Below, piece by piece: positions 32,704-61,600 of a stretch of DNA of 64,000 nt. The stretch covers positions 62,001 to 126,000 of the forward strand of contig SAUG01000135.1 of assembly GCA_011316305.1 (NCBI GenBank). The letters run 5' to 3'. The DNA comes from Rusavskia elegans (Eukaryota > Ascomycota > Lecanoromycetes > Teloschistales > Teloschistaceae). Every line of letters begins with the position of its first letter. The stretch's first letter is position 1. The notes beneath the pieces are model-generated. The model had not been told where the DNA came from, did not search any database, and saw only the letters and a list, made by a program, of their open reading frames with translations. The translations under genes and the position numbers were made by a program.

Positions 32704-33693
32704 TTAGGCCCTCTCCTCCATGATTTCTTTAAAGCTTTTAAGGTGACCGCCGTTCTGGTTAGTTATTGTCACATTTGGCATAGCAGCCAGTCTGTCACTG
32801 ACACGCGGCTCGCTCTGAGAGCGATCGAGTCCTGCAGCAGCTAAATGGCCAGAGCTCAGTGCATCAGCCAATACACCTTGGTCGATCATATTGGCGGACC
32901 TCATCCTCACCATGCGAGAACCAGAAGGAAGGAGAGTGAATAAATATCTTTGCGTCATGACAGTGTCGATCATGAAATGAGGCAGGGCGAGGAGAAGGCA
33001 GTCTGTCTCTCGAACCATAGCGACCAATTCCGTGTAGAAAATTGCATTGACAAATGCTTCCTGCTCAGGAGATTTGCGTCGGACGTCGTGATATCCGATC
33101 TTCATCCCCAACCTCTCGTACGCGTTGCGTGCAATAGCAGTACCGATGTTGTCAAAACCCAAGATACCTAGCATGTGGCCACGGGGGTTGAAAGCTTCAA
33201 CAGGTATGTCATTGTAGGCTTGGATCAGCTTGTCCGGATCCATCGAGCGAGTCGTCGAAAATGACATACTTACGTAGCGGAACACACATGATATGAGATC
33301 GATAACAATGTCGGCGAGATCTAGATGTGTCGCTTGGCCATAAGTGGAGATTTTTGGTCTAGAAGGTATGGGTCTGGGAGGCGAAAGGGCTGCGCTGAAT
33401 GCTAACGTAGAGGATTTGCGTATCGTTCCAGGATTGATGAACTCCTGCACGACGGCGTTTGTAATGGCTCCCGTCCGATTGGATGGTTGGAACCGCTTTC
33501 TTTCTCCAGAAAAGCATGATTGCGTACAAGCGATGTCCAGAACCCTAAGCGATCTCGGTGGGCTACCCTCTACCTTGATAGTACTACTTTTGCCTTTGGC
33601 ATGTACTGTATGACAGTCAAGATAACGGCTACCCGCCCCACCACAGTTGATTGAGGCTGCGTTATCGATCCCTGTTTTATATGGCCTTATCAT
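32704..33693 (-). pseudogene. D-isomer 2-hydroxyacid dehydrogenase remnant
   Basis: The C-terminal two thirds of this frame (about 33330 to 32704) reads as the NAD-binding domain of a D-2-hydroxyacid dehydrogenase: HMLGILGFDNIGTAIA, GMKIGYHDV, ETDCLLLALPH, HLAAAGLDRSQSEPRV and PNVTITNQNGGH. Features needed for activity are gone: the Rossmann glycine motif is GFDNIG instead of GxGxxG, the position of the catalytic Arg reads RMRSANMIDQ, and the catalytic His position reads TNQNGG. The N-terminal catalytic half is missing, since the ~110 aa before the domain are unrelated. I read it as a 5'-truncated, inactivated copy. It lies just upstream of the ankyrin gene. Confidence 0.7.
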
Positions 33694-33843
33694 TGGCTAT
33701 CCTGCAGGAGTCCGGACCCCATTCTCCGTCAACCTCACCCAAGCTTCTTCATATTTCGTTCACGATCAGTGTCAGACCTCTTCAGTCTTATTTGAGTTCA
33801 CCAGCGCTATACTATCGATAGGCCGCCCGAGCACTGTCCGATC

Positions 33844-34477
33844 ATGCAAAAATAGACCCAACCGCGAGTGTACTCGGGCCCGGTGAAGGGCAACGTCGTT
33901 ATTCAGGGGGACATGAGCGCCCAGGGCAACATCAATATTAGTACAAAATCTCCTCCTCAGTATATTAAAAGAGTTCCGGTATATAGGGTATTCTTTACTT
34001 TTAAGCGCAATCGATATCTACTCCGGTATAGGAATCATCAATTTACTATTGGATCACGGTGCAGATATAAATCAACCTTATTTGAAAAACACTATGCCTT
34101 TGCATCATGCTGTCAAAAGGGAAGACATCGGTGTCGTCAAAATTCTCCTTAGTCGCGGCGCCAATGTCAATGCTAAATCGGACATCGAACCAACAACAGC
34201 TCTTGGGACTGCCATTGATCGTACTTTGAACCGAGCACACTCGCTAGAAATCATCATATTATTGGTCCAAATTGGATGCGACCTGAATCAGGCTTGCCCC
34301 GAAACGCCGGTGTCTCTTGCGGTTGAAAGAGGTCGAGTGGACGTCGTAGAGTTTCTCTTGCGAAATAATGCATACGTAGATGCATCTGTGCTACCAACGG
34401 CTTTCAAGATGCAGCGCGCTGAGCACTTACAAGCCTTACTGGCTCACTCTGTAAGCAGGCAGAGGCAGCAGTCATGA
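33844..34477 (+). pseudogene. Ankyrin-repeat protein with N-terminal amyloid-like motif, nonsense-mutated
   Basis: Best model: ATG at 33844, exon to 33959, intron 33960-34005 (46 bp, GTATAT...TTTTAAG), exon 34006-34477; the lengths make 195 codons plus stop. Codon 4 is TAG (33853-33855), so the model is interrupted; a CAG-to-TAG change would explain it. Alternatively, the TAG is the end of an upstream intron and the true start is elsewhere. After it comes a Gly/Asn-rich motif (VYSGPVKGNVVIQGD, then MSAQGNINIS) and then about four ankyrin repeats (INLLLDHGADINQ, MPLHHAVKREDIGVVKILL, VDVVEFLLRNNAYVD). No nucleotide-binding domain lies between. The motif matches the C-terminus of the convergent caspase-lipase gene, whose end is 235 bp away. 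Confidence 0.65.
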
Positions 34478-34711
34478 TGATTGATTGAGAAAGGAATCGA
34501 AATCTATGGAGGAACTAAATTACGGAGTGTCTCGGGAGCGCAATAACTGAACGTAACATGCATAAATAGAGGCTCCTTCACTAAAAAGGTTTTATCGACG
34601 TAGTATATTTATACTGGTAGCGCCGTCCATAAACAAGGATAATGATCCATGGACGTGGGCGATCCACGAATGGTGTACAACATGTAGAAAACAGAGAACG
34701 CAAGTCTTTTG
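34478..34711. other. Gap between convergent partner genes
   Basis: 234 bp separating the 3' ends of the ankyrin and caspase-lipase genes; presumably both 3' untranslated regions. Nothing else seen. Confidence 0.4.
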
Positions 34712-35182
34712 TCATCTTCCCTCTCCCCAGTAATTCAGATTTAGACCCCCAGAAGATGTCAAATTACCCTGAATCACCTGTCCTGCCTGAGCGTTGATAG
34801 ATCCAGAGTAAACATGCGATGATCCTCTATCCGCCTGCTTCGCAACATCAGTATCATTTGTGACCTCCGCTCCGGCCTCAATCTCCACGGCCCAGATAAG
34901 TAGTTGATCACGAATATTCCGATACCCTTGGTCTTTCGAGCTAGCGAATCTTGTCATACCCACATGACTGGCGTGAATACCCTGGTTACTATACCTTGGC
35001 AGTACGGCCGAGTGTCTTGGTACGATGAGGCCTACGAGGTTGTTGTATAGGAGTTCCTCGAAGAAACAGTATATACGGGGTACTGGCTTGTTTTGGGATT
35101 GTCGGGCGTCTAGCATTGTGTGGAATCTAGTTGGAGTCAGCGTCAGAAAATGACTCTTGAGAATGGACAAATAATATGGTTT

Positions 35183-35237
35183 GGGTCTTGATCCGTGCAC
35201 TCCATAGTATCACTAAAGTACTCCATAGAGATTACTA
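35183..35237 (+). repeat. Left terminal inverted repeat of the MULE
   Basis: 55 bp beginning GGGTCTTGATCCGTG. Compared with the reverse complement of the right end there are seven differences, all C/T transitions. Just inside it the sub-repeat ATAGAGATTACTAAAATACTCT is reiterated. Confidence 0.9.
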
Positions 35238-38200
35238 AAATACTCTATAGAGATTACTAAAATACTCTATAGTAAAACTTTACTATATAAAATATAGCGT
35301 ACCCGAGCCGACTAATTAAATATTTAGGATTTAAAAGGTCTATTTTACTTTATAAATAATATTATCGAGATCTTTTTTTCAACTATCTATTATAACCGTA
35401 TATTATATACTAATAATATAAAAATTAAAGTCGAAACTTTTAGATCTATAAACTATACATCTATACTATTAAATATAAAAAAAACCACTATATATATATA
35501 GAATTAAATAAATAGTATTTCTTTTAGATTATTTACTTTAATTATAGAAAATATCTTACTACTAAAAATTATATAAAATATTTTAAAATAGAACTAGTTC
35601 TATTTTTTTTTATATTTCTTTTATATTTTCTATCGATTTAAGTTTAGTAATCTAGTTTAATAAAACTAGACCGTCTAATATAGCTAATTATAATTATAAA
35701 ATATATATAGGACAGACTTTTTTATTAATAATTTTAAAATAATTATATATATACTATTATTAATTTTCTTTAATTCTATTATCTTTTTCGCTATTATAGT
35801 TCCTATAATATAGTTTCTACCTCCTTCTACTAATTAGATATTCGATATATTTAATATATTTATTAAAGCCGTTAATTTCTAGATAAAATAATAAGGCTAT
35901 ATTATATAAAAGGATTATATAATATCTAATCCTGCGAAAAAATATAGTATTATTAAAACTATAATCGTCTATTTAAAATCCGGCTATTTTAAAAAGCGTA
36001 GCAAGTATCGATAGATAACTATCTAATATTATAACTATTCCTTTAAAATAAAAGCGACTTATAAAAAGGAACTCGATATCTAGAAACTCCGTATTATTAA
36101 TTCTAATTACTCTGGATATAGACTTTTTAAAACTAAAAGTCTCGTAATATATTATAGAGTTTCTATAACCTCGGCTGTTATAGAAGATATCCGTAATCGT
36201 ATTAGAGATTATATAACGCCTTTATAGATTATTAAAATCTTCTATAACGCCGTAAATATCGAGAAATAAAAATACCTTATTAATAAACGCGATATCTATA
36301 ATATTAAACGGACTATTAAATATAAAGCTCTTCGCAGCCTTATATCTATTTAAGTATTATTTAAAATACTAATAGAAAGTAAGTTAAAAAACGCTAGAAA
36401 ATAGATATTCGAAGTTTATAAAAATTAAAATAATTAATTTATATATCTTTTTTTCGCGAACCGAAAAACTTTTAAAATATCTGGGAAATATTATTATATT
36501 TTTATAGTTAATTCTATATATAAGATAAATAAATCTAGATTTTCTTTTTATATAATTATTAGTTATACGCCTATAAAAATAACCTTTATTATTATTTTTA
36601 TATTTATTTTTAAAAAGAAGAATCGAGACTATATCTAGATTTTTATATAAATTAAACTTTTATATAATACTTTCTATATTTCGGACTCTAGTCTCTTTAT
36701 TATTAATACCGAATAAGCTTTTATTAATAAAATTATTATCGTTTTTCTCGGTTCTAACTATATCCTATATATTTATTATATCGATAATAATATTAAAACT
36801 TAAGCGACGCGTTCTCTTTATTTTAAAAAAAAGATTAAAAAGTTTATAACTATATAGAAGACTATTAACTAGGTAGATACTATAGAGAAAACCGATAAAA
36901 AATAGATTATATTAGAAATTAAATAGAAGGAAATAGACTCTACGCTGGTTTAATATTACTAGACTATATAGATAGAAAAAAGGGTAGAAAAGTTCTATTA
37001 CTACTATACTAATCAGATTTTAAACTTCGCGGTTATTATTACTAGCAGCTATAAAGGAGTTTATATAGAATTAAAAAAAAGACTCGAAGTCTTAATAGGG
37101 GATCTAGAATATATTTTTAAATACTTTAATAATTTTATTAGAAATTAGATTAAAAAATATAACTTTATTTTTACTAATTCCCGGGAATATATCCTATTTA
37201 ACTATTAAATCCGCCTATTTTAAAAGTTTAATTTTAAGACTATACGAATTATTCGCGATAAAATCTTTAAATAATATAAAATAGTAAAAAATATATCTCT
37301 AGATTAGAATTTAAAACTATATAAAGATATTTTCCGCCGGTTAATAGGTTTTCTATATAAATATAAAATTCAGAAATTTCTCCTATAAACTAATAGCGCT
37401 AGCGTCCTCGAAGCAAGCGACTATTATTTCTACTAGTACTACTACTATAATTTCTAGAATAGTTTTTACCTTTGATTTTAAATATTTAATAGAGATTCGT
37501 ACGAAGCTTTAGATATTATTAAAAAAAAAGCGAGTTTATTTTAATAGAATTAATAGAGAGAAAAGGTACCTTCGAAGTTAATACTACTATCTATAATATC
37601 CCTTTACCTTTTATTTCTAAATTTAGAGATTCTAATAAAGATTAGATAGAAGATAATAATAAAGTCTAGTAAATATATTAAATCGATAAGAAAGTATTTA
37701 ATAAACTATTTAAAAATATTATAGATTTCTTTTATTCTAATAATATATCCTAGGCTTCCTTTATTAATAATTTTATCGGTAATGACTCTTTTAATAAAAA
37801 TAAAGTTAAAGAATTCCTTTATATCGATAAACTACCTTATATTAAAGGGAAAAAATAATTAAAAAGAGCTATTAAAGCCCGTTCCGTATTATATACGCAA
37901 GAAATATTATAGGAAACCTCTATTTAATAAAATCTATCTTCTTTCGAATTTATAAAAATAAAGATTTATAATAAAAAATAGTAATAGGAAATTAAAATTC
38001 GTTTTATAAAAGATTATTATATTAGATAATAATATTTCTATTATAAAAATAAACTAGCTATATACTATATAGCTATATAAAATATATAAAATCGAAAAAA
38101 AAATAATATAAAGAAAAGCCGGAGGAAAAGTATAAAATCGAGATATATAAAGTCGAAGTCGAAACGGAAGAGACGCTAAACCTTTTTATAATTTTCTAAA

Positions 38201-38707
38201 CCCTTTTACTAGCGATAACGAATAACTAATACGAGGTCGAGGTCGAGGCCGAAGTAAATAAATATCTCGAAGAAAAAAATTACGAAATAAAGATAGAAGG
38301 ATTTCGAAATAGATATAATATTTCGAAAATATAATAAATAATAATAGTAAATACGAAGCTACTATATATAATCTAGATATTACTGCTAGTAATAGTAAAG
38401 GTAATAAAACTATAGATCGAAGTCGGCGAGTTAAAAAAAAGTCGAAAAAATAGATATAAATAGAAGTAGAAAAATAATATAATATATATTTAAAAACGTT
38501 TAAATTAACTAAAATTAAATATTCGATAATATTAAAATAAAATAGCTAATTAGCTTCTAAATAGATAAATTAAATAAATTAAAATATAGTTAAGAAATTT
38601 AGTTAAAATAACCGTATTCCGTAAAATATATAAGATAGAAGGAAATAGCAGAATAGTAATTTAATATTCCGATTAGTAAAATCCTATTTAATAAGCGTAG
38701 AGTTTTA

Positions 38708-38762
38708 TAGTAATCTCTATAGAATACTTTAGTAATACTATAGAATACACGGATCAGGACCC
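38708..38762 (-). repeat. Right terminal inverted repeat of the MULE
   Basis: 55 bp whose reverse complement begins GGGTCCTGATCCGTG and pairs with 35183-35237 over its full length. Confidence 0.9.
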
Positions 38763-41117
38763 TATGGTTTTGGTATAAAATAAATAGAACTAAATAGAAT
38801 ATATATTCGTCTAGGCAGAGGTATAAAGAAAGATCAAAATGAAAACAGATATTATGGTAAACATCGTGGATTGTCACTACTCCATAAAGTGTTGATAACA
38901 ATGTAAAGTATTTCAGGAAGGATCGAAGTAAAGTTGATCATTGCAATGGATGCGTATTTAGATTCACGTCTCAGCGATCATTGGAGTCACATCATAGATC
39001 CGATGCATAGTGAAAGAGAAACGGAGGTGTAGAAAATGTCTTGACTCACTCTTGCTGCAGATTCGCTAATATCTCCGAGCCAGGTTTCAATACACTGCTA
39101 ATATTCTTGTTCGTTGACCGGACGATGCTCGAGAGCTTAGTCAATATACTAGCCCAGTCCACGAGCTTAGAGCCCGTATGTGGAGTTCCTAAGAAGATGA
39201 TGCCGGCGGTTGACTCAAGAAGCGCGTTTATCCACGGTTCCGCCGCTCCACGCGAGACTAGAAGCGCCTGCTTACAGACTAGTCCCCCGAGACTGTGTAC
39301 TACAAAGATCAGAGGGCGTTTTGTCTGTTCAAGGTTAGCAGAGAACGACTGGTTTGCCTTACGATGAGCAATATAGCTCGGACGACTAGCCGATAATTCG
39401 ACTTCTCTGAGTAGCAATTCGATACCTCGACTCATGACGCGCCTGGTGTCCGAGCTTTTCTACATTCCGCGACCCAGCAACGGGTAATAACTCTTACCGT
39501 ACCATCCAATAAGCGTTTCCGGCTCAGGTCAGTGGCTAAGGCCTTTCCATGATCTCTTATGGTGTTTGTCGAGGATACGTCGATCAGATGGACGACGTCT
39601 GCGTCGTAGCCGAATGTCATGATTCGTGAAGTTGGCATGTCTGACGCAAGCATGTCTCGAGGCCATGTTGTCCCTTGTTTATTATCTGTCCACGTCGATT
39701 CTCGATTTCCTGTTAAGCCATGAACAAAGACAATGCTGAAGAGTGTCAGAAAGTATACTGGTAAGTTTTGAAAGATTCTACACCAGTACTGACTCGATCT
39801 CAGCCTCGCTAGGTTCGGCAAATGTCTTGAGTCCATATTCGGAGCCCGTCGTAGTGGCTTTCCCGTCGGGTTGCTTTAGGTTACGAGATCTCACAAAGGC
39901 GACGAATGATATAGCAGGGTCCCTGGGAAGTAGGTCCCACGTTGCCACCGGGAGCAAGAGAAGTAGGAGTGTCGAGTCACTTTGATATACACTTTCGATG
40001 TGTATACTTTTAGCTACCGCAGGAAATGCCTCTAGCCAGGTGATCCAGTCCCTGGTATGAAAAGTTTGCTCTTCTTGGAGTGCTATAGCAATCAAGACCT
40101 TAGGCGAGACGAAATTTGGATCGGGAAAGACCTCCTCCAATGAACTTTGACTGGACTCGTGGTAATCTGACATGTCAACATCTACTGAAGCCGATGTGAG
40201 CGGTGTGGAAAACTGCGTAGTCGATGACTCTTGACTGGTCCCAGATGTTGAGAGGTATGTAGCAGTGGTGTAAGCTCGATACACCTTTGATTCGATCTGT
40301 CTGCAAGGTGGATATAGATCGGGGTTCTTCTCCGCTCATAGTTTCCGTCCGTAGCATAGCGAGGGTTCCAAGATTTCTTAGCTCTCGCAAGTACTTTGTT
40401 GTGAAGAAAAGATGTGGAGATAGGACCTGGTCGCTGTGCGTACCACCTTAGTTCTTCGATTAAGCTTCTTGTAAAAGAGTGCTCGCCGACTCCCGGCGCG
40501 AAAGCCTCGAATCCGCACGCAGCTATTATCTCGGTGGTCCCTTTGCTATGACCGTCGGTAGAGCTTGCAGCAGCACAACAATCCAGTAAGATCAGAACGT
40601 CGCAGTCAGCCTCCTCAAGCATGGTCTATATGCTCGACCATTGGGCGGTAGCGGCGTCTGGCTCCTGGTTACTAGAGACGACCATCAGCCACGAATCCTG
40701 CAAGTATCACCCTACTCAGGCTCACCAAAGCCATACGCATTGCCGATCCTCGTTCATGAAACCGTGACCTCCATAGTAAACGATCAGAAGCTTATCGCTC
40801 GCCTCGGCCTCGTCTAGCGAGCGTATAATCCGACGTGCTAGAGCATTGTGTGACTTGGTGCTAGGAATACGCCACTGGTTCGTGCTGTATCGGTAAATAT
40901 CTCGGAACAGATCGTCCAGGTCGTTGATATCTGACGCAACGCGCAAGTCATCATCCTCCCACGAGAGCAAGAGCACGTGGACGTCGCAGTAGCGACTCCG
41001 ACCAGCCTTTGGGAAGGCTCCCACAAGCGCTCGATTGAGGATCTCGCCCAGCGCCTTGGGGTCCTTGATATGGTTATCAATGAACGAGAGATCATGAGTC
41101 CTGTCTTTGGAGGTCAT

Positions 41118-41751
41118 CGCGTGACAGCTCGTAATTCTTAATGGTGGACTCGGTGCGGAGGGAATTGGTCACGCTCTTTGGTCTTCAAAGACGTAGCAAG
41201 ACGAATTCCACGAGGCTGTATTGCCCCGGCACCTGAACCCCTTGTAAGGCTGCATCCATTGGTTACAATTGCACGCAACCGTGCAGCAGCTCGATTCAAC
41301 ATGAATAGCCGGATCATCCCAGAATTCGGGCAGCAGCGCATTCGGGCGTGTGACCGCAAGTCGTAATTCCTCGACGTCGTAGTCCATGGATGTAAGATAA
41401 GGCAATTTGTGATCACGATCGGTGGTAGTCTGCCAAAAGACACAGAAGGAGAGAGGAGCCCATAATCCAAGATTTGCCGAGCTCAAGTTATCGCTCGTTT
41501 AACACCATTAAGGGATTGTTTCTTTTGATTGGCTCTGCTGAGTGATATCAGCATTGAGTGTGAAGACCTCCATGAACATGGCATTTAGAGTCGATACGGA
41601 GATGACTCCGGGAAACGCGACTAGTTACCTATTTAGGCCTAGCGTTAACTCTTAACGTGCAATATTTAGTAATGATTTCCTTTTTTTCTACTTATCACCC
41701 TAGCCACCATCCTCAATTCTTACTCCCCACCTTCAGCTCTCCACCCGCATC
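41118..41751. other. Upstream region of the caspase-lipase gene
   Basis: A minus-strand frame (41486-41169) has many Cys/Trp residues and an ATG (MDYDVEELRLAV...), but no recognised domain and no splice continuation I could support. It may be an upstream exon or a relic. Not called as a gene. Confidence 0.35.
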
Positions 41752-43697: not shown

Positions 43698-43958
43698 TAA
43701 AGACTAGAGGTCGACCCTGCTACGACGACCTATGATTTATCTGGTGAGAATTGCTGGTGTAGTGGTAGTCGGGGCACAGGTATAATTAGGGTCAGCCCTA
43801 ATTACACTGGCATGCCGAAAGGGAGAAAGGGAGACTCCAAAAAGGAGCTTAGTGAAAGCTTAGTCAGCAATGTCGTATCAGCAGACCGTGACTAAAATGG
43901 AACTGTTCTGATTCCGACTTCGAATCGCTGCTAGTCGTGGCCGCTCTACACCAATGCT
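43698..43958. other. Intergenic with a short hairpin
   Basis: Contains AATTAGGG-TCAG-CCCTAATT at 43784-43803, a perfect 8-bp stem with a 4-base loop, about 90 bp after the preceding stop codon. Confidence 0.5.
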
Positions 43959-45882
43959 ATGCCGCTCTCTAAGTCATGGAAGTCAACATATCAGTATGAA
44001 GCTTTGATCAGTCCATCCCACATCCGGCTCCTCAGGATCCATCAACAGCCTGAGAACAGCAAGGGACTCGATTGCGAGATATTTCAAACTTCAGTCCATC
44101 AGCCGCATTGCCTGTATACGGCCTTGTCATATACCTGGGGCGATCCCCACAACCAGCGTATCATCACTTGCAATGGATCCAGCATCGTCGTTACGGCTAA
44201 CCTTCACTCCGCGCTGACACGGATAAGTGAGCTTGAGACAGGAGCCTTGATCATTTGGGCCGACGCTGTTTGCATCAATCAAAGCGACCTGCGGGAGCGT
44301 GCGGCGCAAGTACTCATCATGCCCAAGATATACACACAAGCGACAAGGGTTATCGTTGATATTGGAAAACAAGTTGATGACAGTGATATTGTCCTACATA
44401 TGTGTGCGGATTATCAAACGCTTATGGCACACCTTAGGGATAAGCAGGCCGGTGCTTGGCCGAATCTTGAACAGTTTAATCGCGGAGAATGGGGTCAGGA
44501 CGAATGGTGGTCTGGTTTGAACTCTATATGCTCTAGACCTTGGTTCAGAAGGGTATGGGTCGTGCAGGAAATATTGCTCGCTAGGAGCGTTAAAATGCTC
44601 TGTGGTCATGTCTTCTTCGAATGGTTCGATCTCGCCACCGTCATCAGAAATTTGGATCGGGACGGAATGCTCGCCAATGTCGGTCCAGTAGCCTACCGTG
44701 GCTGCCAGGCTATCTTGACTATGGAGCCACATCGTCCGGGCACCCTCAATGCGGACACCATACCGTTATTGGCGGCGAATAGAGTCCGGGAAGCTACTGA
44801 TCCTCGAGATAGGGTATATGCGATAATGGGAATCGCCGCTGACAAGCAGTTGAGCACGAAACTGGGCGTTGATTACTCACTCTCAATGGAACAGGTCTTT
44901 GAAGATACCACAAGATACTTGATCGGTAAAAAAGCGTCTATCGAAGTTTTGTACGAGGCTGGGGGACCAAAGAACCTAACGCGCTTGCCGAGCTGGGCAC
45001 CAGACTGGACCATTGGACCTCAGAGCAGTCTCCGCGGCTATGAAGATGTGTATAATGCCTCGGGACGGTCGGCATCGTTAATGGAATTCGATGAGTCTGG
45101 CCTGAGGCTTCACATTAGGGGCTTCGTTGTTGACGAAATCCATGAACTGGGGACGATCTTAGTATGGTCTGAAAGACCTTCCTCCATGACAGATGACGAA
45201 CCATGGCACAGGATCTCGGAATTCCTTGAAGAATCTATGAGCATGATCCAAGGCTTGGGGGATCACTATACACCAAAAGGGGTCTCGACAGCTGAGGCAT
45301 TTTGGAGGACATTAATTGGAAACAAGACTTTCAAGGACAAATCTACACCTCGTGCCTGGAAGTACAGCAAGTTATTCGATGCCTTCCAGCGGCGATGTCA
45401 GACCTGGTATTCATCGCCGCCAGAAGATCCGAGCCTTCTTAGCGGTAAGAGCCTGCGCTCTCTCGTATTGGGATACTGCAGATGAACCCCTCTCTGGATC
45501 GAGAGGACTAAGGCTGACTGATGATATCGGATATTCAGATCACATTGAGCAGCGCCTGCGTCTGGCGTCGGAATCCCTTCCTTACCAGCAAAGCCTTGAA
45601 CAGGTGTTGTGGGGTAGGTTATTCGGCACGACGTTAGGCGGATACATGGGTTTGCTACCACGCAATTCTCGGAGAGGAGATCGGATTGCGGTCATCGCAG
45701 GCAGCAATGTTCCTTTCGTTATAAGGAAAGGAGCTGATTACGAAGATGCGTTCCGGCTCATTGGGGATTGTTACGTACATGGAATGATGTCTGCAGAGAT
45801 GGTTGACTCTTTCAATGACGAGTTTGCACCTTCGGCTGATTTGGAAGTAAATAAGAGCGAAATGTCTCTGGTGCTGATTTGA
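43959..45882 (+). CDS. HET-domain (heterokaryon incompatibility) protein
   Basis: Exons 43959-45444 and 45482-45882 give about 628 aa. The N-terminal HET domain shows its landmarks in order: YTALSYTWGDP (about residue 55), LIIWADAVCINQSDLRERAAQV (about 97-118), IYTQATRVIVDIG and WFRRVWVVQEILLAR. The middle carries DPRDRVYAIMGI and LPSWAPDW. The C-terminal part has GGYMGLLPRNSRRGD...IAVIAGSNVPFVIRK and YVHGMM, as in many fungal HET proteins. The two parts lie in different frames and are joined by a candidate 37-nt intron (GTAAGAGCC...ACTGCAG) that fits phase exactly; the alternative is a frameshift. HET proteins trigger cell death on contact with non-self. It lies 2.8 kb from the caspase-lipase locus. 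Confidence 0.85.
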
Positions 45883-49867: not shown

Positions 49868-52620
49868 CTATGCCGCCACCGTCGCGGTAGTCATCGCCAC
49901 AACCCTACCCACATCCTTCTTCCCGTTCCGTCTCCCCTTACCCTTCAAAACCCTCAACCCTTTCTTCCACCAAACCGCCTTCTTCTTCTCTCCCTCACCC
50001 ACCACCGCCGCATTCCCATCCCTCTCACCAGTCGCACTCCCTGCGCTATTGGTCGAATTGTTGAGGGTATCACTACTACTCGCTCCACTCTCGCCACCCT
50101 TCTTCGTTTTCAGTTTCCACAACATACTCACTTGCTCTCCCATCGTCGGTCGGCTGATCAGGTCCTCGAGTTTGAGATCCCAACCTTGCTCTTCCAGTAT
50201 CGCCGTCAGCGAAGCCAGGGAGATGAGATCGCCTCCGGATTCGTAGAAGGAGGAGTCGAGGTTGAGGATGAACTGGCGGTTCTTGGCCGTCGGCAGCACC
50301 AACCTCCACCCTCTCGCCAACGTATCGGCCAAATCAGTGACCTCCTTCTTGGAAGCGCCGCGGAGGAGAGAGTCGAGCGCGGGCCGGGAAGATGGCGACG
50401 AGATCATGGGTTGAGGGTTGCGTTGGTGTTGTGTTAGAGAGACGGAGATGGCGGATTTGGATACCACATCCAAGATGGAGCTTGTGGGACTGCGGACCAG
50501 ATTTTGAGCGAGAGAGCACATGCTATCCAATGCGTTCTGGACGAATTCTTTGGAAATCGATCCGTCGTCGATGAACGACAGTGTAACCTCCAGTTTATCC
50601 CCGCCTTTGGGTGTAGACACGAGTGTCAAATCTGCAAGCGTATCCTGCGCACCTTGCGCACCAACTTTGTAGCTGATGCGGTCGAGCGCGAGTTCGAAGT
50701 CCTGTGCTAGGTTCTGGTGTTGGACAATGGTGGAGAAGTACGTCCATTCCGCCCAGGAAGTACAGTTTTGGACAATCTCGCGGAAGCCCAGGGATTCATA
50801 GGGCATGCCTGCTACCTGTTGTGATTGGATCTTGCGGAGCAGTTCGAGAGCGGTCCACTTGGGTTCGAGTCTCATGCGGACGGGGACGACATTGACGCAG
50901 GGCCCGACGATGGATTCCACGCCATCAACGGCGACGTTACGGCCACTGATGATGTTACCGAAGACGATGTCTGACTGGCCTGACAGTTGAGCCAGTGTGA
51001 GAGACCAAGCAGCTTTGAGAATTGTGGCTTCGGTGATATTCCTTGAGGTCAAGGATGGAAGTCTGATGTTCTGCACCAGCATCGTCGAGACAATGTTTGG
51101 TGATTCGTACCTTGGTTGATGACGGGGAACGACCTCTGTCATCGATGAACCCTGCAATAGCTTCTTCCAGTATTCTCGACTGCCATTGGTCGGAGTACCA
51201 CAAGCTTCTTTGACATATGCCGAGAAAGGCGGTGCTCGCAGAAGATCCTTGCCTTCGTACGCTGCTCGGAAAGAGTCAAGGATCTTCGGTAAACAGACAC
51301 CGTCATACTGTGCGTGTGACAGCCGTAAAATGATGCGGTGTGCCTTTGATCCCGTCTTTCTGATCACAGTAAATTGTGTGTAGGGCTCACCAAGGCGAGG
51401 CGAGACGTGCGTGCTGCCATCCCGCAACTGCTTCGTGAAGACATCGAAGTCTAAATCTGTGTCGAAGACCTGCACTTGAGGCTGTAGAGTCCGAAGAACG
51501 ACCTGCAAAAAGCGGTTGCCACTAGGTACAAATACAGTCCGTAGTATTTCGAAGCTATCGACAAGCTTCAATGCCGCTTTCCTGAGCCGTCCAACGTCCA
51601 GGTTCCCCTCACCATCGAAGGTGAAGTAGTTGAGCATCCAGCATGATTCGATAAGAGTACCAGCGACTGCAAGAGCTTGAAAGTCCGTGACAGGGAAAGC
51701 GTCAACGATACCCCCGCGGAAGATTCCCACCTTAGGGCAAATGTAGTCTTGGAGAAAGTTTTCCACATTGGTGGCTTCGAGAAGGGAGAAGTGCTTGATA
51801 TGTCCTTCGTCCTCAACGTCCTCATGTTCGGTATCGCTAGAAGTGTCACTCGCGGCAAGGATATTCTGCTTCTTCATATCCGCTCTGCCCATGCAGTAGA
51901 CCATATCCGAGAACACAGGTTCCCCGAAGATATCAGCAACAGTCAGAGCAAGACCAGCATCACGCGTAGACTTGGCAAGCTCCATGGCCAGGATTGAGTC
52001 CCCTCCGAGAGCGAAGAAAGAGTCGTCGTCGTAGATTTTGCCGGTGGGGATATCCAGCAATGGACTCCACAGCTCCCGCAGTGTCCTGGACATGGCTTCA
52101 TACGAGAAGGTTTCGGTGTATGAGCCTGCACGAGATCTTCCACCAGTGGTCTCGAAAGATTTCCTGGTACCGAAATCATACTGATCGATACCATGGGCAG
52201 GGCCGAAATTGTCGGCTGCATCGAAGTCCGTAGCGTCAGACATGCGACGTGGGCGTACAAGCTCGCCAGATTCGATGAGCTGCTCGATGGTTTCACGCAC
52301 AGTCTCTTTGATCAAGCTTCGGTAAGCATGCGGTTCCAGAGCACGCAACGGCGGTTGTTCTGTTTCCGAGATGGACGCGGTCACTTCCGTGGGTGGGCTT
52401 GGTTCAACAAAGACAGGAGTGTGTTTGGTCTTCTCGGCGGCCAATCCTACTTCTCGTTCTTGTATCAAGGTGTCATGGACACTTGAAACGGCATCGATTT
52501 CGGCAGGCGCGTCATATTCTGCAACTGTCTGATCGGCGCAATCGATTATCTTACCGAGCAGTTCCTCATAAGTCCTTGTAAGTGTTTCACCTTCTTCAGC
52601 CGAGAGTAGGGAAGTCCAAT
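49868..52620 (-). other. NRPS terminal T-C-T* region
   Basis: After the condensation domain that spans the intron there is no adenylation domain. Instead a ~170-aa linker, a normal carrier (FFALGGDSILAM), a condensation domain with SHAQYDG, and a carrier-like domain with ESGGDLISLAS follow, then a basic, Ser/Gly-rich tail. Confidence 0.85.
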
Positions 52621-55600
52621 GTTTGATTCGTCCGCCTTCGTCACCCGGTGCACTACGAATATTCACTGTGACCGCGTACTAGGAGAGTCATTATTAGTCC
52701 TTTGCACACCTTTATCAGGGACAGCACGATACTCACCTCGGTAGGATCATGATCAGTTATCGGCACGATCTCAATCGCATCCCCCTCCTTCTCCGCATCT
52801 CTAGTCGAAATCTGATTCTGAATTGACACAGCCGTATTAAACAAAGGCTCCCCAGAGAAGCCAAGATCATGCTGCACTTTCGCCAGGGAGCAATGCTGAT
52901 GGGGCAACATGCTAAGATAGTCGCTTTGAACATTGTGAACAATATCCTTGAGGGTCTTGGCTGGCGAAAAGTTGACACGGCATACCAACATGTTGATGAA
53001 GGCGCCGACTGTATCCTGTATCCCGTCGACAGGGGCCTCGCGGCCTGCTGTGAGATTACCGAAGCAGACATCATCTCTCGAAGTGTACTGCCGGAGGAGC
53101 AAGCCCCATGCAGCAATCATGACATTGGACAAGGTAACTTCATTGCTTCTGCAGAAAGCTTGAAGTTCGGGGAACCGTTTGAAATCGAGGTAGATGGCAT
53201 TCAACCGTTGCTTCTCAGTAGGCGTGTTGTTCATCGTGGGAATGTGGCAACGCTCGACCTTGTGTAAGTAGTTCTTCCAGAAAGCGGTGCCAGTGCCTTC
53301 ACCGAGGCTGCTGATGAATTTGACGTAGTTCGAGTACAGTGGTTTGTCACCATCCGGTAAGCGATTCTCATAAGCCAACGCAAGATCTCTGGTGATCAAA
53401 GCTCCAGAGCCACCGTCAATGACGGCATGATTGAGCTCGAGCTTGGTGTAGCATTTGCCGGACCTGGTGGTGCAGATGGCGAATTGATGAGGCAGCATTG
53501 GACGTCTAGTCTTGTTCGTCTCACGCAGAGACGACTTGGTGAATTCCTTCTCGAAGTCGTCGTCTGCACATTGCAAGACAAGAGCCCCACCAGGGGCTTG
53601 TTTGAGAGCGATTTGGTCAAAAGCATGACCCTTGCAGACACTGTAGACAAAGGCGGTCCTCAGAGATTGGTGTCGATCCACAACCTTCTGCCAGGATCGG
53701 ACAAGCCTCTGGACGTCGACTTTGCTGCCCCCGTGTGACAAATAGACCTCCGAGATGACGAAGTTGACATACTGCTCCGGATTCCGGATTTGTGACAGCA
53801 GCAGTCCCTCTTGGGTAGGTGCTGTTGTATAGATATCCTCGACCTCGTCCAGGCTTTTGATGCCGACCTCAGCAAACGTCTCGGTCAAATGCTTGTGCAG
53901 ACCACTATAGTTCGTCGGCAAGAGCGGATAGTCGATGAGAGATGCACCGGGTTTCGACTTGACCAAATCCTTCACAAGGCTTTCCAGACCGCGCTGGCAC
54001 TCCGTCACCCATTGTTCAATGGCATCTTGGTGCTGCATATGTTTGTTGTACATGAATGAGAAATGGATCTGGTCATTCGAAGCGCCCACGGATATTTCGA
54101 ACAGCGCCATTCTCGTTGTTTTAGGTCCAACATCTGCCACAGCGTATTGTTCTTGTTCGCTCTTGGCGATGTCGAAAGGTGCAAAGAGGGAGTCGTTCTT
54201 GCCAGACTGCTGGCTTTGTCCCGTGTAATTGACGAGGATTTCCATAGGCATGTGGTCGCCGAATCGCCAGCGTCCGTCCGGTGTAAGATAACGATGAGCA
54301 AAGTAGTCTCTGCCGTTGTTTGGAATCGACCGGCGGAGATCTTTGACTCGTTGCAACACCTCCACCGCAGATAGTTCTTCGCTTCCTGCAGGCAGCTGGA
54401 GTGGGGAGATGGAAGTGAACCATCCCGTTGTGGCAGTGAGATCAATACTTGGATCCCAAGCATCACGCCCGTGGCTTTCACTAAAGACCGTGGGCGCTGC
54501 TCGCTGAGGGAATGCAAGTTTGAAGGAGCTAATGAGGGCAGATAGGAAGAGCTCGACCGGTTGGGTCCGCAGGGTATTATTCGATTTCCCAAACGCCAAT
54601 TGAGTTGTGGCCTGGTCGACGGTGAACCTCTCGACCTTGACATCGGCATATGTATTGATAGCGTCAGCCATACCCCAGAACGCCATATCGGCTCTCTTGA
54701 TATTAAAAGGCAGAACGCCTTTGATCTTCGATGCCTCTCGTTGCGTAGCGTGGGTATACTGCATCTGGTTCCAGACCTGGAAGGACATTGGCTTCTCGAT
54801 GGCCTCGGTCTGGGACGTAAGTAGATCTTCAAGCTGCTGAACGATGATGTTCCAGGATACCACATCAATGATGAGATGATGTGCGACAAGCGACAGGACT
54901 TGCCCTTTGTCCAGGGTGTCGATAAGCTTGATGGCAAAAAGCGGGCCATTGACAATATCCAAGCTGTTCTGATTGGCAGCGAGCACCGGCAACATCTGAC
55001 TTGAATGTTCTACTTGATGCTCATCCAACCGAAAAGACGCCGAGACATCCTTAACGATACGTTGTTGCCATGTACCAGCTTTATTGCGGGAGAACCTTGC
55101 TCTGAACATAGAGTGTTGATGGACGATAGTCTCAATGGCGGCCCGAATAGTAGCTCCCTCAGTCTTGCGGGTAAGACGAAGCAGCTGGCTCTGATTGAAC
55201 CGACCTTCGCGTGTGTAATCACAAGAGGGACCCGCCAGCTCAAAGTACATCCGCTGCACTGGCGATAGATCAAAGGGTTCATCGATCTTCTCCTCCGTAG
55301 CTGCGATCTTGGGGGTCTTCGAGGTGTTGCCTCTGGACTCAGCCAAAGCCGCTAGTTGAAATAGCGATTTACTTTGCAAGATTTCCTGCAAGGACATTAT
55401 AATTCCAACCTTGCGAAGCTTGGCAATGATTGACATGGAGATCAGGGAGTCGCCACCTTGACTCATGAACGACCGGCTTGGATCAATCTCGTCAACCGGA
55501 TTGTTGAAGACATCAGCCCATACTTCACGCAGCTGCTGCACAGTTTCCGTGATGGGTGCTTTCTCCTGTGCATCGTTATCATTGGCGGTGCTCTTCCGAT

Positions 55601-58600
55601 ACTGATCATCATCCATCTTCTCGATCCACCTCTCAACCTGCTTCCTATCAAGTTTACCTGACACCAGCAGCGGTACAGCTTCGACGGCTATCCACAAAGC
55701 AGGGACCATGTAGACTGGTAGTCGATCGGAAACGAATTCGCGTACATCCTTTAGCTGGGCCTGTGCCTTCTTGACACGACTTTCGTCTTGCAGTAACACA
55801 CACTCCTTAGCATTAGAAGCTTGCGACTCCGAGCACATGTCCGAAAGCGATAGCACAGCCACAAGTCGTTTCTTGCCGAAACCCGCCTTCGGAACGATGG
55901 CGACCGTATGCCTGATATGTGGATGTAATTCGAACTTGTGTTCGATTTCTCCAAGCTCGATACGGTTGCCGTGAAGTTTGATCTGGTTATCCTTTCGTCC
56001 GATGAACGTAATGCTGCCATTCTCGGCGTATTTGACCAGATCACCAGTCTTGTAGATCTTCTGGTGTGTCGTCGATGCAGGAAACACACTGGCAAGCCAG
56101 TCTGGGTTGTTGATAAAAGCAGCTTGAGTCTTAGCCTCGTCGTGAAGATATTCACGAGCAAGTATAGGTCCACCCAGGAGAAGTTCTCCCACGCAGCCCA
56201 GAGGCGCCAGCTTGTTATGGTCCTCAGCATCGGCAACCCAGGCGAATCCATTATCATGAGCGTAGCCAATGTTGGAAGAATCTTTGTCCCTCGAAGTATT
56301 CGAGTTGACCACAGAGATGACTGAAGCTTCCGTTGGGCCATAGCCGTTGACAAGCGACAGAGAGTCTGCCCACTTAAGAACATTTTCCTTTGACATAGCT
56401 TCACCACCGCATACTAGGACTTTTAGTGATGATACCGCAGCTGGCTCAATGAGGTTGGCTACAGAAGGTGTCAAGAACGCCCACGTAGCTTTGAGGCCAT
56501 TGATAGCAGACGCTAGATCCGTCATCTTGGCTTCATTATTGGGTACGCAAACGCATGCGCCCAGGGTGAGGGGTGATAAATTTTCCATAAGCCCGACGTC
56601 GAAAGTGACGGAAGCGAAGTTGAAGACTCTGGAGGACGGGGTCATGAGCATGGCTTCGGTGTATGCCAAAGAGCTGGAAGTGAACGCTTGGTGCTCCACA
56701 ACAACCCCCTTTGGCCGGCCGGTAGAGCCAGAGGTAAAGATCACATAAGCTGTGTTGCTGCTCTCAGCCTCAAGAAGCGTGGTGTCACTTCCACTGTCAT
56801 CAACTGTTGGCAGCTGAGCGATAGTTTTCTCCTCGATTGAGATGACAGCTTCCACCATGGACGAGTAGCGGTCATGGTATCCCGGCGAGCAGAGTAATAC
56901 GCTAGCTCTGGAGTCCTTGATGATTTCTGCATGACGAGAAACAGGATGTGCTGGATCAAGAGGAACGACAGCACCTCCGGCGAGAAGAACACCCATTTGA
57001 GCAACTAGAGCCCATCTTGACTTGTCCATACAAAAGGGCACAAGCACCTCGGGCGAAACGCCGAAATTGCGTTGCAAATTTTGTGCAAGCTTTTCCGCAT
57101 GCATGCTCAATTCTTGATACGTGAATTCACCATCCCACGCACAGACAGCTGGAGATTTGGGAATCATCTCGGCCTGTTGCAGGAACAGCTCATGGATGCA
57201 CTCCTTGACTGTGACCGGTTCGTAGTCATTCCATTGACGAATCGACTCAATATCCCGCAGGCTGATCACCTTCACCTGGCTCAGCTTCATGGCACCGTCG
57301 GACGAGGCGGAGTAAATTTGGCCCAAGATCCCTTCCAGCTGGTAAAGCAGTCTCTGAACATGCCACTTGGAGATGACATGCTCGTTGTAGTGAGCATCGA
57401 TCTCGATGACTGACTCATCAGCGCTGCACTCGACGACGAGCGGATAGGTGAAGAAGTTGGAGCCAACACCTGTGTTGACTGGATCCCACAGTTTAGACTC
57501 CCCTTGGCCGCCCTGAGCGGTCTGTATGACGAGAAGATTTTGAAAGTCGCAAGCCATGGCGCAGTCTTCGTTGAGCCGGCGGATGTTCTGCATGCCGACA
57601 TGCTGATATGGGATGACTTCAGCCGCCATCTGGTTGATCTTTTGTAGGAGATCCTTGATCGTGGACGTCTTGTTCAATTGAATCCTCGTGGGAATCGTGG
57701 TCAAGGTCGGGCCAAGCATGTCGATGACTCCATCAACGGGGATATCACGTCCTGTCATAGTCTCACCAAAGACCACATCATCGCTTCCGGTATGTGCGGA
57801 TAGCAATATTCCCCACGCAGCTCTGATAATGGTCGGTAGCGTAATGCCTGTTGCTGTCGCCTTTGGCGGGAGCCGAAGGGTGTATTTCAAGGCGTCGGTA
57901 CTTCCCTGTTGCTCTCCCTCAGTGGATGAGACGCGCGGAAAATTGATGCTCTGCAGTCCATCAAACTTGGAGCGCCAGAAGCGGTCCGACACTTGACGGT
58001 CCGTGCTCGAGATGTACTTGATGAACTGTGCATAGGATGCCCTGATTGGAGGCGGTGAGTCTTCGAAGTAAATATCCTCAACTCTTTGCAGCATCCTCGG
58101 CATACTCCATCCATCATAGAGAGCATGATGGACTGACCAGACCAGATACCGGTCGGACGAAGACCCGCTGTCGACCAAGGTAAACCTCATTAATGGAGAT
58201 CCGCTGTGTTCAGGTAGTGGTACTGGAGTATCGGTGACATCTCCTAAACGCTCAGCCGAATGCCATTCTATAACCTCTTCCTTCAAAACGGCTTGAACGA
58301 ATGTCGAGTCACTCGTATGGACAATTCTGGTTCTCAGGATAGCCATGTCTTCGATGGCTCTTTCCCAGGCCGCCTTAAAAGCATCAAGATCCACCGCTTC
58401 AGGAAGGCGAAAGATGTTGTTCGCCACGTAGGCGCCGGGCTGTTTGATGGACAACGTAATGAGGCCCTCCTGTAGTGCACTGCATGGATATGCATCGGCC
58501 AGCTGTTCTTTCTCAACGCAACACTGTGCAGTGATCTCGTCGAGCAGTTGGCCAAGAGCATCGACATTGCCTAACAACCCAAATGGCTTCAGCACAGATT

Positions 58601-61600
58601 GATCGCTTTCGTCCAACAGACTGCATGCGCTGGCCATCTCTTTGAGGGTGGGTTTCCGGAAGATGTCGAGTACACTCAATGATATCTTCTCCGCTCGAGC
58701 GGCAGCAACGAGTTTCATGGCCTGTACACTGTCACCTCCGACGACAAAGAAGCTGTCGTCAAGTGTGGCCGATGCTGATTGCAGGCTTAGAATACGCTCC
58801 CACAACTTTTGAAGTCGTTTCTCCATTTCAGTGGTCGGCATCCGTTTGTTGCCGCTGCTGGCGAGTTTCAATGGCGCGGTCTCCTCCACTGACAGCTTCG
58901 ACACGATCTTACAGAGATGAGTTCGGTCTAGTTTTCCAGATGCTGTCCAAGGCATGCGTGATAGTGGTATAAAAAGAGTTGGGATCATGTAGGCGGGTAA
59001 AGCTCCCGCAAGGTCCGCTTTGAGCTTCCTGCATAGTGAAGTGGTGTCGTCTGTCATAGCCAACAGCAGCTTGCCTTCATCTGAACTCTCAACATCAGTA
59101 GCTTGATCCCGTTGGCCAGCAATGCAGAAAAAGACAGCCAAAGTGCGCTCTTGTCCAGACGGTGCAACCATCTCGATAGCGGTGTGGACATTCTCCGGGA
59201 CTCTTTTCTTGACGTGGTGTTCAATTTCTCCGAGCTCGATCCGTAACCCATTGAGTTTGATCTGGGTATCTTTTCGCGAGACGTATACGATATTGCCGTC
59301 TGATCTGTAACGTACGAGATCGCCAGTTTTGTACACCAGAGTCCCTGAGTCACTGACAGGCTCTTGAGCAGTATGATCCATGAAAGAAGGCCGCGGAACG
59401 AAAGATTTGGCAGTCTTCTCTTCGTTGTTCAAGTACCCACGAGCGACAGTGTTTCCCTCAATCACTAGCTCGCCGACGCTGCCGATAGGCATCAATTGTG
59501 TATGATCTTGGGGGTTGACGACCCAGCTTCGGCAGCCAACAGCGTGACCAATCACCGCTGGGTCATTGTCGACAAGGCGCTTTTGCTCATCCACCTTGAG
59601 ACTGGTAGTGGCAATGACAGCACATTCGCTGGGCCCGTATGCATTGACCAGGCTCGTCTTGCCAGTCCATTTAGCAATGTGTCTTGCCTGCATGGCTTCT
59701 CCACCAGTCACTAGCACCTGCAGGCTGGGAACGCTTCCAGGATTCAGGACCTCGGCAACAGATGGAGTCAACAGGGTCCAATTGACGGACATGCGACGGA
59801 TAGCACCGGAGACGTCGTTCATTCGTTCTTCATCACTTGGGATGCAGACGCAGGCACCGATGATCAAGGAGGTGAGAATTTCCATAATCGAAGCGTCGAA
59901 GCAGAGGTTCGAGAACTGTAGGACTCTGGACCTCTGAGTCATCAAAATGGCGGGCGCATGCTCTGTAGCGCTCGTAGCAAATGCCTGATGAGAAATAATA
60001 GTCCCTTTGGGGAGACCTGTTGTTCCGCTCGTGAAGATGAGATAGGCTGCATTGTTGGTATTGGAGGGCGAGACGGCCTTTTCATAGAGTGGTTGTTCCT
60101 GCTGCTCCAAACCCATACCTACAACATGTGTCGTGACCCCAGCATATCCACGGAATTTGTTGCTGTGCTTTGCAGATGACAGGACGAAATTCGCATTGAC
60201 ATCGCTGATGATGAATTTGAGTCGATCTTCAGGGTGTGTGGGTTCAAGGGGGACAAAGGCTCCACCGGCCTGGAGTACTCCAAGCATGGCTACTACAGCC
60301 CACAACGACTTTTCGAAACAGATGGGAACATACGATTCTGGTCCAACGCCAAGAGCGGAAAGCTGATGCGAGAGTCGTGTGGATAGTGCAATGAGCTGCG
60401 TATATGTCAAATCCCCATCCCACGAGCATACTGCAGGTGTCGAAGTGGGAAGCTGACGCGACTGACGCTCGATGACTTCGTGTACACAACGGTCGACCTT
60501 TGGCAGCCGGCGGCTGTTCCACTCCAAAACCTGCTTTGTGTTGCTTGCACCGCAGTATTCGATAGCTTCTATTGTACGCTCGGGGGCAACGGTAGCTATC
60601 AAAGAGCTCAGGACTTGACTGAAGGTGTCTGAGATATTCTTCGCTTGGGTTTCGCAGAGGAAGGTCGTCCAGTATGTGAAGTAAACCGCAACATGCGCAC
60701 CATTGACTTCCACATTCACTGTCAGATCATACTCGGAAGGATCGTGAGCATCCAGGATATCGAATGTAATCTCTTGATCCGTAGCATCCCGCGGAGCGGG
60801 ACGTCTTTGATAGGTGAAAGCCGTGTTGAACAGCGACTTCCCAGCCAGTTGCAACTCATGCTGCATGTCGCCTAATGAAAAGGCCTGGTGGGACATACTT
60901 TGGGTATAGTCGTCACGGATCTGCTCCAAGGCGCCGCTGATCTGCACCTCATTGCTGCAGTCCATGCGGCATACTAACATGGAGATGAAGAGGCCCACAG
61001 CGTCTTCGATGCCCTCGACCGGAACATCACGCCCAGAGCTAAGGTAACCGAAGCAGACGTTCTGATTACCTGTATACGCTCGAAGAACGAGCGACCAAAC
61101 GAATTGCAAGGCAGTCGAGAGGGTGACACTGCGCTGGGTACAGAACGATTGTAGTCGTGCAACATCGCGCAGCTCAAGCTCAAGTGTTCGAAGCTCCTTC
61201 TCTTCGTTGAGGCCGTCAGTCAGAGCTGGGAAATGGCAGGGCTCAACAGCATCAAGATACCGCCGCCAATAGGCCGAATCGTCCTCCCGAGATGTCCGCT
61301 GGAGGTATGCAACGTATTCACTATATAAGAGCGTCTTTTCTACCTTGGGGGTTTGAGAGATATAGGCGCGAGCGATGTCCTGGAAGATGATCGGAATCGA
61401 AGTACCGTCGCAGATGGCGTGGCTGAGCTCCAGCCTACAGAACATGCGTTCACCGTTCGTTTCGCAGATTGTGAGCCGATGATGAGGCTGAGCGTCCGCG
61501 GAGCTGATGCAGGCCTTACTTTCCAGGGCTGCAACAGCGTGTGCGGCATCGGCTTGAAGCAGTTCAATTCTAGCAGGACTCTGCTTCAAGACCGCTTGAT

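Follow-up and report, generated by a model that had tools for sequence, protein, structure and literature searches.

A probably decayed copy of a candidate amyloid-motif receptor–lipase pair in the lichen-forming fungus Rusavskia elegans

Described fungal systems and the Rusavskia pair

The accessible text of a 2025 paper (PMC12261475) gives five families of fungal amyloid signalling motifs, namely HRAM, sigma, PP and PUASM 1-2. In the published accounts, as far as these are available, the receptors of fungal amyloid signalling are NLRs that all contain a NOD, and oligomerisation of the nucleotide-binding domain (NBD) is thought to bring their motifs together. The window analysed here, a stretch of 64,000 nucleotides from Rusavskia elegans, contains neighbouring genes for an ankyrin-repeat sensor and a lipase effector with related motifs at opposite termini; unlike those published receptors, this sensor has no detectable NOD. 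The window genes are likely to have arisen by decay of one copy of a receptor-effector pair that is conserved and signals via a shared prion-like amyloid motif.

Several described pairs share parts of this architecture. The sigma system of Nectria haematococca (SesA/SesB lipase and the NLR HET-eN), in the available part of its description (PMC3321046), likewise combines a SesB-type lipase bearing a C-terminal motif with an adjoining partner that carries a homologous N-terminal motif and ankyrin repeats, in variable gene orientation. However, HET-eN has a NACHT domain, and the sigma motif, in the same excerpt, is built of repeating GxGxQFN / GGTQNIN units that together span about 40 residues. 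The HET-S/NWD2 pair of Podospora anserina, an HRAM system, is encoded, in the accounts at hand, by divergent adjacent genes and shows the same topology, the receptor motif being N-terminal and the effector motif C-terminal, but HET-S, the effector, is a HeLo protein that forms pores and carries the motif twice, and NWD2 is a NACHT-WD NLR. The PP system (HELLP, the SBP lipase and the PNT1 NLR), in the passages available, includes one effector that is a putative lipase and has a motif of about 20 residues, whereas its sensor is an NLR and its consensus is unmatched here. Finally, PUASM, the PNP_UDP-associated amyloid signalling motif, has, in the accessible sections of its description (PMC9815663), a similar length and glycine spacing, GN[IL]T..GD being common to one peptide; its effector, though, is a PNP_UDP enzyme and its sensor an NLR.

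According to those same sections of PMC9815663, the fungal survey sought motifs in NLR N-termini and in effectors beside NLR genes, so that a pair without an NLR would be invisible to that procedure. The partially available open-access literature, which leaves subscription journals mostly outside, yielded no paper on such a lichen pair or on amyloid-motif sensors devoid of an NBD.

The window pair and its counterpart on contig C179

The genome searched comprises 44.2 Mb in 217 contigs, the window belonging to contig C41. Sensor and effector genes are convergent in the window, with 234 bp between their stop codons. Open reading frames place TQPRVYSGPVKGNVVIQGDMSAQGNINI in the sensor frame (33856-34149, + strand), and the effector frame (35125-34715, − strand) has the C-terminal end ...SHVYSGSINAQAGQVIQGNLTSSGGLNLNYWGEGR.

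The window sensor gene (33844-34477, + strand) is most likely, as judged from its sequence, a decayed copy. It consists of a start-like ATG, an in-frame stop at 33853-33855, the N-terminal motif VYSGPVKGNVVIQGDMSAQGNINI (33868-33939, + strand; E = 1.3e-12 here and 3.9e-7 at C179 in an own-genome search), a partial ankyrin region in another frame and an early stop. The stop at 33853-33855 separates the motif from its nearest upstream ATG, which aligns with the start of the intact copy. When the 805-aa protein P0121 is aligned to the window by tblastn, residues 5-57 fall in frame 1 and residues 278-435 in frame 2, placing the motif and the ankyrins in different frames; relative to the intact form, the stretch from the motif to about residue 278 is missing and the window copy ends near residue 435 of 805. 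The remaining ankyrin repeats (33968-34447, + strand) are detected by Pfam (Ank_2, E = 3e-21) and by tblastn.

The last exon of the effector (34712-35126, − strand) encodes the C-terminal part of the lipase, a linker and the C-terminal motif VYSGSINAQAGQVIQGNLTSSGGLNL (34736-34813, − strand), and is 64% identical to residues 207-352 of the C179 effector. It is adjoined by an apparent last intron (35127-39049, − strand; GTGAGT...CAACTAG) located where the C179 copy has an intron of 53 bp. Within this intron sits an AT-rich, strongly RIP-like transposon of 3,580 bp and 21.5% GC (35183-38762). Its terminal inverted repeats are 65 nt long (86%), and it is flanked by a target duplication of 8 bp, TATGGTTT, at 35175-35182 and 38763-38770; the duplication suggests what we take to be a hAT-type element. 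The SesB-like alpha/beta-hydrolase (lipase) part (39049-39867, − strand) comprises three tblastn blocks, presumably separated by short introns, of which the two large ones share 77% and 80% identity with the C179 effector; its DUF676 match is weak (E = 0.0012, under the Pfam cut-off). Fused upstream of the lipase is a caspase-like (C14) part (40182-41168, − strand, within the segment 39778-41168; Peptidase_C14 E = 0.0018, also under the cut-off), inside which an in-frame stop occurs at 40626-40628. This part is absent from the C179 effector model. Similar open genes exist on contigs C56 and C167, where relatives of the linker part of the caspase segment are found in frames of 627 aa (C56) and 335 aa (C167); these frames hold no lipase and give no Pfam match at E<=0.01.

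Taken together, the stops in both genes, the truncation of the sensor and the transposon in the effector intron indicate that neither window gene is likely to be functional; splicing or re-initiation might nevertheless still yield a product. The initial annotation had described two genes, an ankyrin sensor and a 'caspase-lipase'. Their motifs are indeed present, and both caspase-like and lipase parts are seen, but the sensor frame is broken by a stop, with its ankyrins in a different frame, and in the effector a stop interrupts the caspase-like part and a transposon occupies the last intron.

The surroundings of the pair include other recognizable genes. A HET-domain gene (43935-45485, + strand; PF06985, E = 3.2e-30) lies about 3 kb from the upstream end of the effector, which places the decayed pair near another incompatibility-type gene. 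Directly left of the sensor is a D-isomer 2-hydroxyacid dehydrogenase frame (32707-33696, − strand; PF02826, E = 2.2e-21), and at the right end of the window long frames (49868-52678 and 52656-63998, − strand) resemble, on the impression of their translation alone, a non-ribosomal peptide synthetase.

A search of the whole genome with the effector motif returned two places, C41 and C179:85967-86050 (− strand), and a search with the sensor motif also returned two, C41 and C179:87765-87842 (+ strand), the latter 1.7 kb from the C179 effector motif. A consensus-like probe of the genome found the same two effectors and no others; these motif searches are blind across sensor and effector forms, and distant additional copies could escape them. 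The second locus thus bears out the claim that neighbouring genes share the motif. Its two genes are divergent, with about 450 bp between their ATGs, so the convergent arrangement emphasized at the outset holds for C41 and is not conserved. The spliced model of the C179 effector has 361 residues in six exons, without stops and with the motif at its end, and matches DUF676 (E = 2.6e-6); its start is supported by the Flavoplaca protein P0005. The C179 sensor model has 805 residues in three exons, again without stops, and the motif stands at its start. It is supported by P0121, an independently annotated R. elegans protein of the same length (805 aa), to which it is 98% identical over the query region 1-250.

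The shared motif and its distribution

Alignment of the sensor and effector motifs of the window gives a local BLOSUM62 score of 52, reached by 0 of 20,000 shuffled pairs (mean 19.0, s.d. 3.9, maximum 42), and each motif is the other's best match, self excluded, among 2,430 six-frame stretches of the window. A hold-out profile, built solely from nine effector C-termini of other species to avoid circularity, was run on 6,475 open stretches from the window and the fetched loci, the C179 stretches being counted twice where two loci overlap. It recovers both effectors of the genome, followed by both sensor N-termini at E = 1.7e-7 and 1.9e-7, and nothing further among the 6,475 stretches below E = 1.4, the value of the next unrelated one. 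The reverse profile, made from a mere two sensors, detects the effectors weakly (E = 0.034 and 0.38). The likeness of the two termini was therefore read correctly from the start, in the right places. The motifs contain 38-58% G/N/Q/S, alternating hydrophobics and few charges; across the four motifs of the genome, the sensor form is two residues shorter than the effector form and has 2-4 charged residues, against 0-1.

None of these four motifs matches the PP consensus FxGx(x)NxGLQLxGxNxGxL or its core NxGxQxGxN, the sigma units GxGxQFN / GGTQNIN, or the PUASM pattern FxGxGxQxxGxGxF. The sigma family PF17106 is not among the Pfam matches of the pair, and is precomputed for some Fusarium and Diaporthe lipases. 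Shuffle tests against PUASM were mostly weak, 10 to 1122 of 2000 shuffles reaching the observed score in ten comparisons. For HRAM, defined by a beta-solenoid repeat of 21 residues, there is no HET-s-type Pfam match at E<=5, a search that short motifs escape. Membership in the PP, sigma and PUASM families was rejected on the printed consensuses, from which the motif is set apart, and the pair most likely adds to an established type of signalling both a motif family and a receptor architecture that are new.

The motif appears to be maintained in relatives. Mean pairwise identity among 11 effectors (55 pairs) is 0.76 for the lipase end, taken as the 62 residues up to a conserved tryptophan, 0.36 for the linker and 0.70 for the motif, indicating that the motif is kept and the linker free to drift. 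In the sensor, Rusavskia and Kuettlingeria agree at 22 of the 24 residues of the motif, the proteins themselves being 51-59% identical. Between C41 and C179, codon differences in the sensor motif are synonymous in ten cases and non-synonymous in five; in the effector motif they are synonymous in six and non-synonymous in nine, which gives no clear sign of constraint on the effector motif of the window. Sensor-to-effector motif scores within a locus (51 and 56) are not above those across loci (56 and 56), and private co-evolution of each pair is thus not seen.

The closest database relatives of the pair belong to the lichen-forming Teloschistaceae, a placement checked by lineage for Rusavskia and Kuettlingeria and which we assume for the other genera. 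For the effector, the best 120 of 1,548 matches were considered and 15 proteins fetched, of which 13 were taken to be close relatives and two served as comparisons. The full motif stands at the end of 9 of the 13, with Seirophora and Polycauliona proteins among these nine; P0002 is cut within the motif, and P0005, P0058 and P0098 stop before it. The sensor search gave 11 relatives, all ankyrin proteins, two of which carry PF28177. Three of them (P0121, P0122 and P0125) have the full N-terminal motif, seven start downstream of it, and in P0126 an initial MDAQRVYSGP is followed at once by a later part of the protein, which probably reflects a faulty gene model. The N-terminal motif is kept in sensors of Rusavskia, Xanthoria and Kuettlingeria. 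Wherever the sequence of a relative reaches the relevant end, the motif is retained; recurrence in related species, a test set beforehand, was accordingly found, and the proposed topology, N-terminal in the sensor and C-terminal in the effector, persists at C179 and in the relatives. Adjacency also recurs beyond C41 and C179. The Polycauliona proteins P0001 and P0127 have consecutive tags (Q9169_006653 and Q9169_006652) on contigs that both measure 14,365 bp, as do the Flavoplaca proteins P0005 and P0126 (Q9198_003165 and Q9198_003166, both on contigs of 6,799 bp); judged from these annotations, the consecutive tags and equal contig sizes make the genes very probably neighbours in both fungi.

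An effector-motif profile applied to the 132 fetched proteins gives 20 matches at E<0.01, nine of them training rows; 17 are at lipase C-termini, 2-22 residues from the end, and the other three begin at position 9 in ankyrin sensors. Further matching lipase tails occur in Halenospora (P0071, 2.5e-6), Fulgogasparrea (P0111, 1e-5), Alternaria (P0032, 1.5e-4) and Xylaria (P0003, 1.3e-3), the weakest being P0037, P0062 and P0007 (0.0049 to 0.0081). Fulgogasparrea is presumably a Teloschistaceae genus; the Xylaria, Alternaria and Halenospora tails suggest that the type extends well beyond lichens. Several stretches of P0132, a glycine-rich protein of 1,365 aa, resemble the motif, as in GGNIVYGGNVEAGRDI; from this likeness, the pattern of the motif may correspond to one turn of a beta-solenoid. 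Since the profile also touches these repeat-like stretches, the resemblance among distant tails may be partly convergent.

SesB-like lipases across ascomycetes display several types of glycine-rich tail, among them SGGGxIFMGN..AGRDF, FNGPISGRNVISG..GGTVNF and GGNxxSGxIxGNxGxILQG. Examples are P0008, P0016, P0029, P0012 and P0048, for which the precomputed Pfam annotation gives hydrolase domains alone, and these tails are possibly more undescribed signalling motifs. The SGGGxIFMGN..AGRD tail of Penicillium and Alternaria lipases had no match in the genome, in a search run without a positive control; its resemblance to the present motif is no more than suggestive of kinship.

Receptor architecture and alternative readings

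The C179 sensor combines its N-terminal motif with a helical region of about 210 residues and 12 Ank-profile matches, as seen from Pfam and an AlphaFold model, and does not support the minimal ankyrin-only form that the short window copy had suggested. The model of P0121 shows a first stretch of 35 residues at low confidence, long low-confidence helices from about 25 to 258 and then a confident ankyrin solenoid; no part of it looks like a nucleotide-binding domain. In a fold search with the sensor model, the first 50 matches listed among solved structures are all of ankyrin type, many of them designed. No NACHT or NB-ARC domain was found among the Pfam matches of the C179 sensor or the precomputed domains of the 11 sensor relatives, and in the three relatives whose sequences include both ends, no nucleotide-binding domain was detected in the interval from the motif to the ankyrins. 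The suggestion that the sensor is the remnant of an NLR was rejected, as none of the 11 relatives found has such a domain.

The effector shows the features of a SesB-like lipase, namely DUF676, an AHSLGG elbow in the consensus, a nearly invariant S153 and, in the related effector P0071, the hydrolase fold; at least three homologues among the 120 listed are named SesB or SesB-related. In the P0071 model an alpha/beta hydrolase is predicted with confidence, and the motif lies in a tail that is disordered. In single-chain models, which are neutral on amyloid, the motif regions are disordered, with pLDDT of about 22-33 in the sensor and about 43-57 in the related effector. Among solved structures no sequence matched P0071, and the motif had a single hit, at an insignificant E = 5.5; NCBIfam gave no match to the effector pieces.

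The genome has at least 34 NACHT and at least 10 NB-ARC matches, counted as matches and not as genes; those listed include none on C41, and on C179 about 150 kb separate the pair from the closest one. Motif profiles were run near 24 of the 44 matches (20 NACHT with 2.2 kb upstream, three NB-ARC with 6 kb upstream and 2 kb downstream, and the C197 NB-ARC within L030); none of these carries the motif, the best value being E = 0.14 overall and 1.3 at the C197 locus. Joined motif variants searched against proteins of about 470-1,500 residues returned only P0121, P0122, P0125 and P0132, in a search that is insensitive because identical motifs score only 33 bits and no more than 7,984 candidates were scored.

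By analogy with the HET-S/NWD2, PP and sigma pairs, in the accessible parts of their descriptions (PMC3321046, PMC5485727, PMC9815663, PMC12881547), we infer an amyloid fold, templating, lipase activation and cell death. The intact sensor would comprise an unstructured N-terminal motif of about 24 residues, the helical region, some 210 residues long, and the ankyrin repeats, without a nucleotide-binding domain, and the intact effector a SesB-like alpha/beta-hydrolase whose flexible tail ends in the motif. Binding of a ligand to the ankyrin surface would be followed by clustering of sensors through the helical region, acting in place of a NOD; the clustered N-terminal motifs would fold into stacked beta-arches, on which the tail of the lipase would be templated into a like fold. 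Assembly would thereby activate the lipase, and the cell would die, probably from membrane damage, in the course of allorecognition or defence. Whether a receptor without a NOD or NBD does employ a new motif family in this manner, its ankyrins and helical region sensing and clustering so that lipase signalling is not bound to NLRs, we regard as evenly balanced.

Other readings of the shared motif can be weighed against the same data. It might serve as a short heterotypic docking segment, through beta-augmentation or a common binding partner, with no amyloid templating; the consistently shorter and more charged sensor form and the lack of a detectable NOD speak for such a role, but composition, length, end position and topology resemble those of fungal amyloid signalling motifs in the published descriptions as available, and we consider docking unlikely. 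We give still less weight to the possibility that the motifs are relics of an ancestral NLR sensor that lost its NBD, the present ankyrin proteins being decoys or decaying receptors. The decayed appearance of the window copy agrees with it, as does the pairing elsewhere of SesB-type lipases with NACHT-ankyrin NLRs (HET-eN, in the published excerpt); yet the C179 sensor is open over all 805 codons and 98% identical in Rusavskia, its motif is preserved between Rusavskia and Kuettlingeria in otherwise diverged proteins, and the three relatives with both ends show no NBD between motif and ankyrins.

Short segments of low-complexity character can appear alike, and two glycine-rich termini might have come to resemble each other by chance. 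The shuffle test, the hold-out profile and the fixed positions in relatives all oppose this, and the second pair in the same genome refutes it, leaving it a negligible probability.

If the preferred reading, a conserved pair that relays its signal through a shared amyloid motif, is true, a receptor of this kind without an NBD would uncouple the amyloid relay from the NLR engine. It would add a motif family and offer a small testable system, and the pair would be a candidate allorecognition or defence system of lichen-forming fungi.
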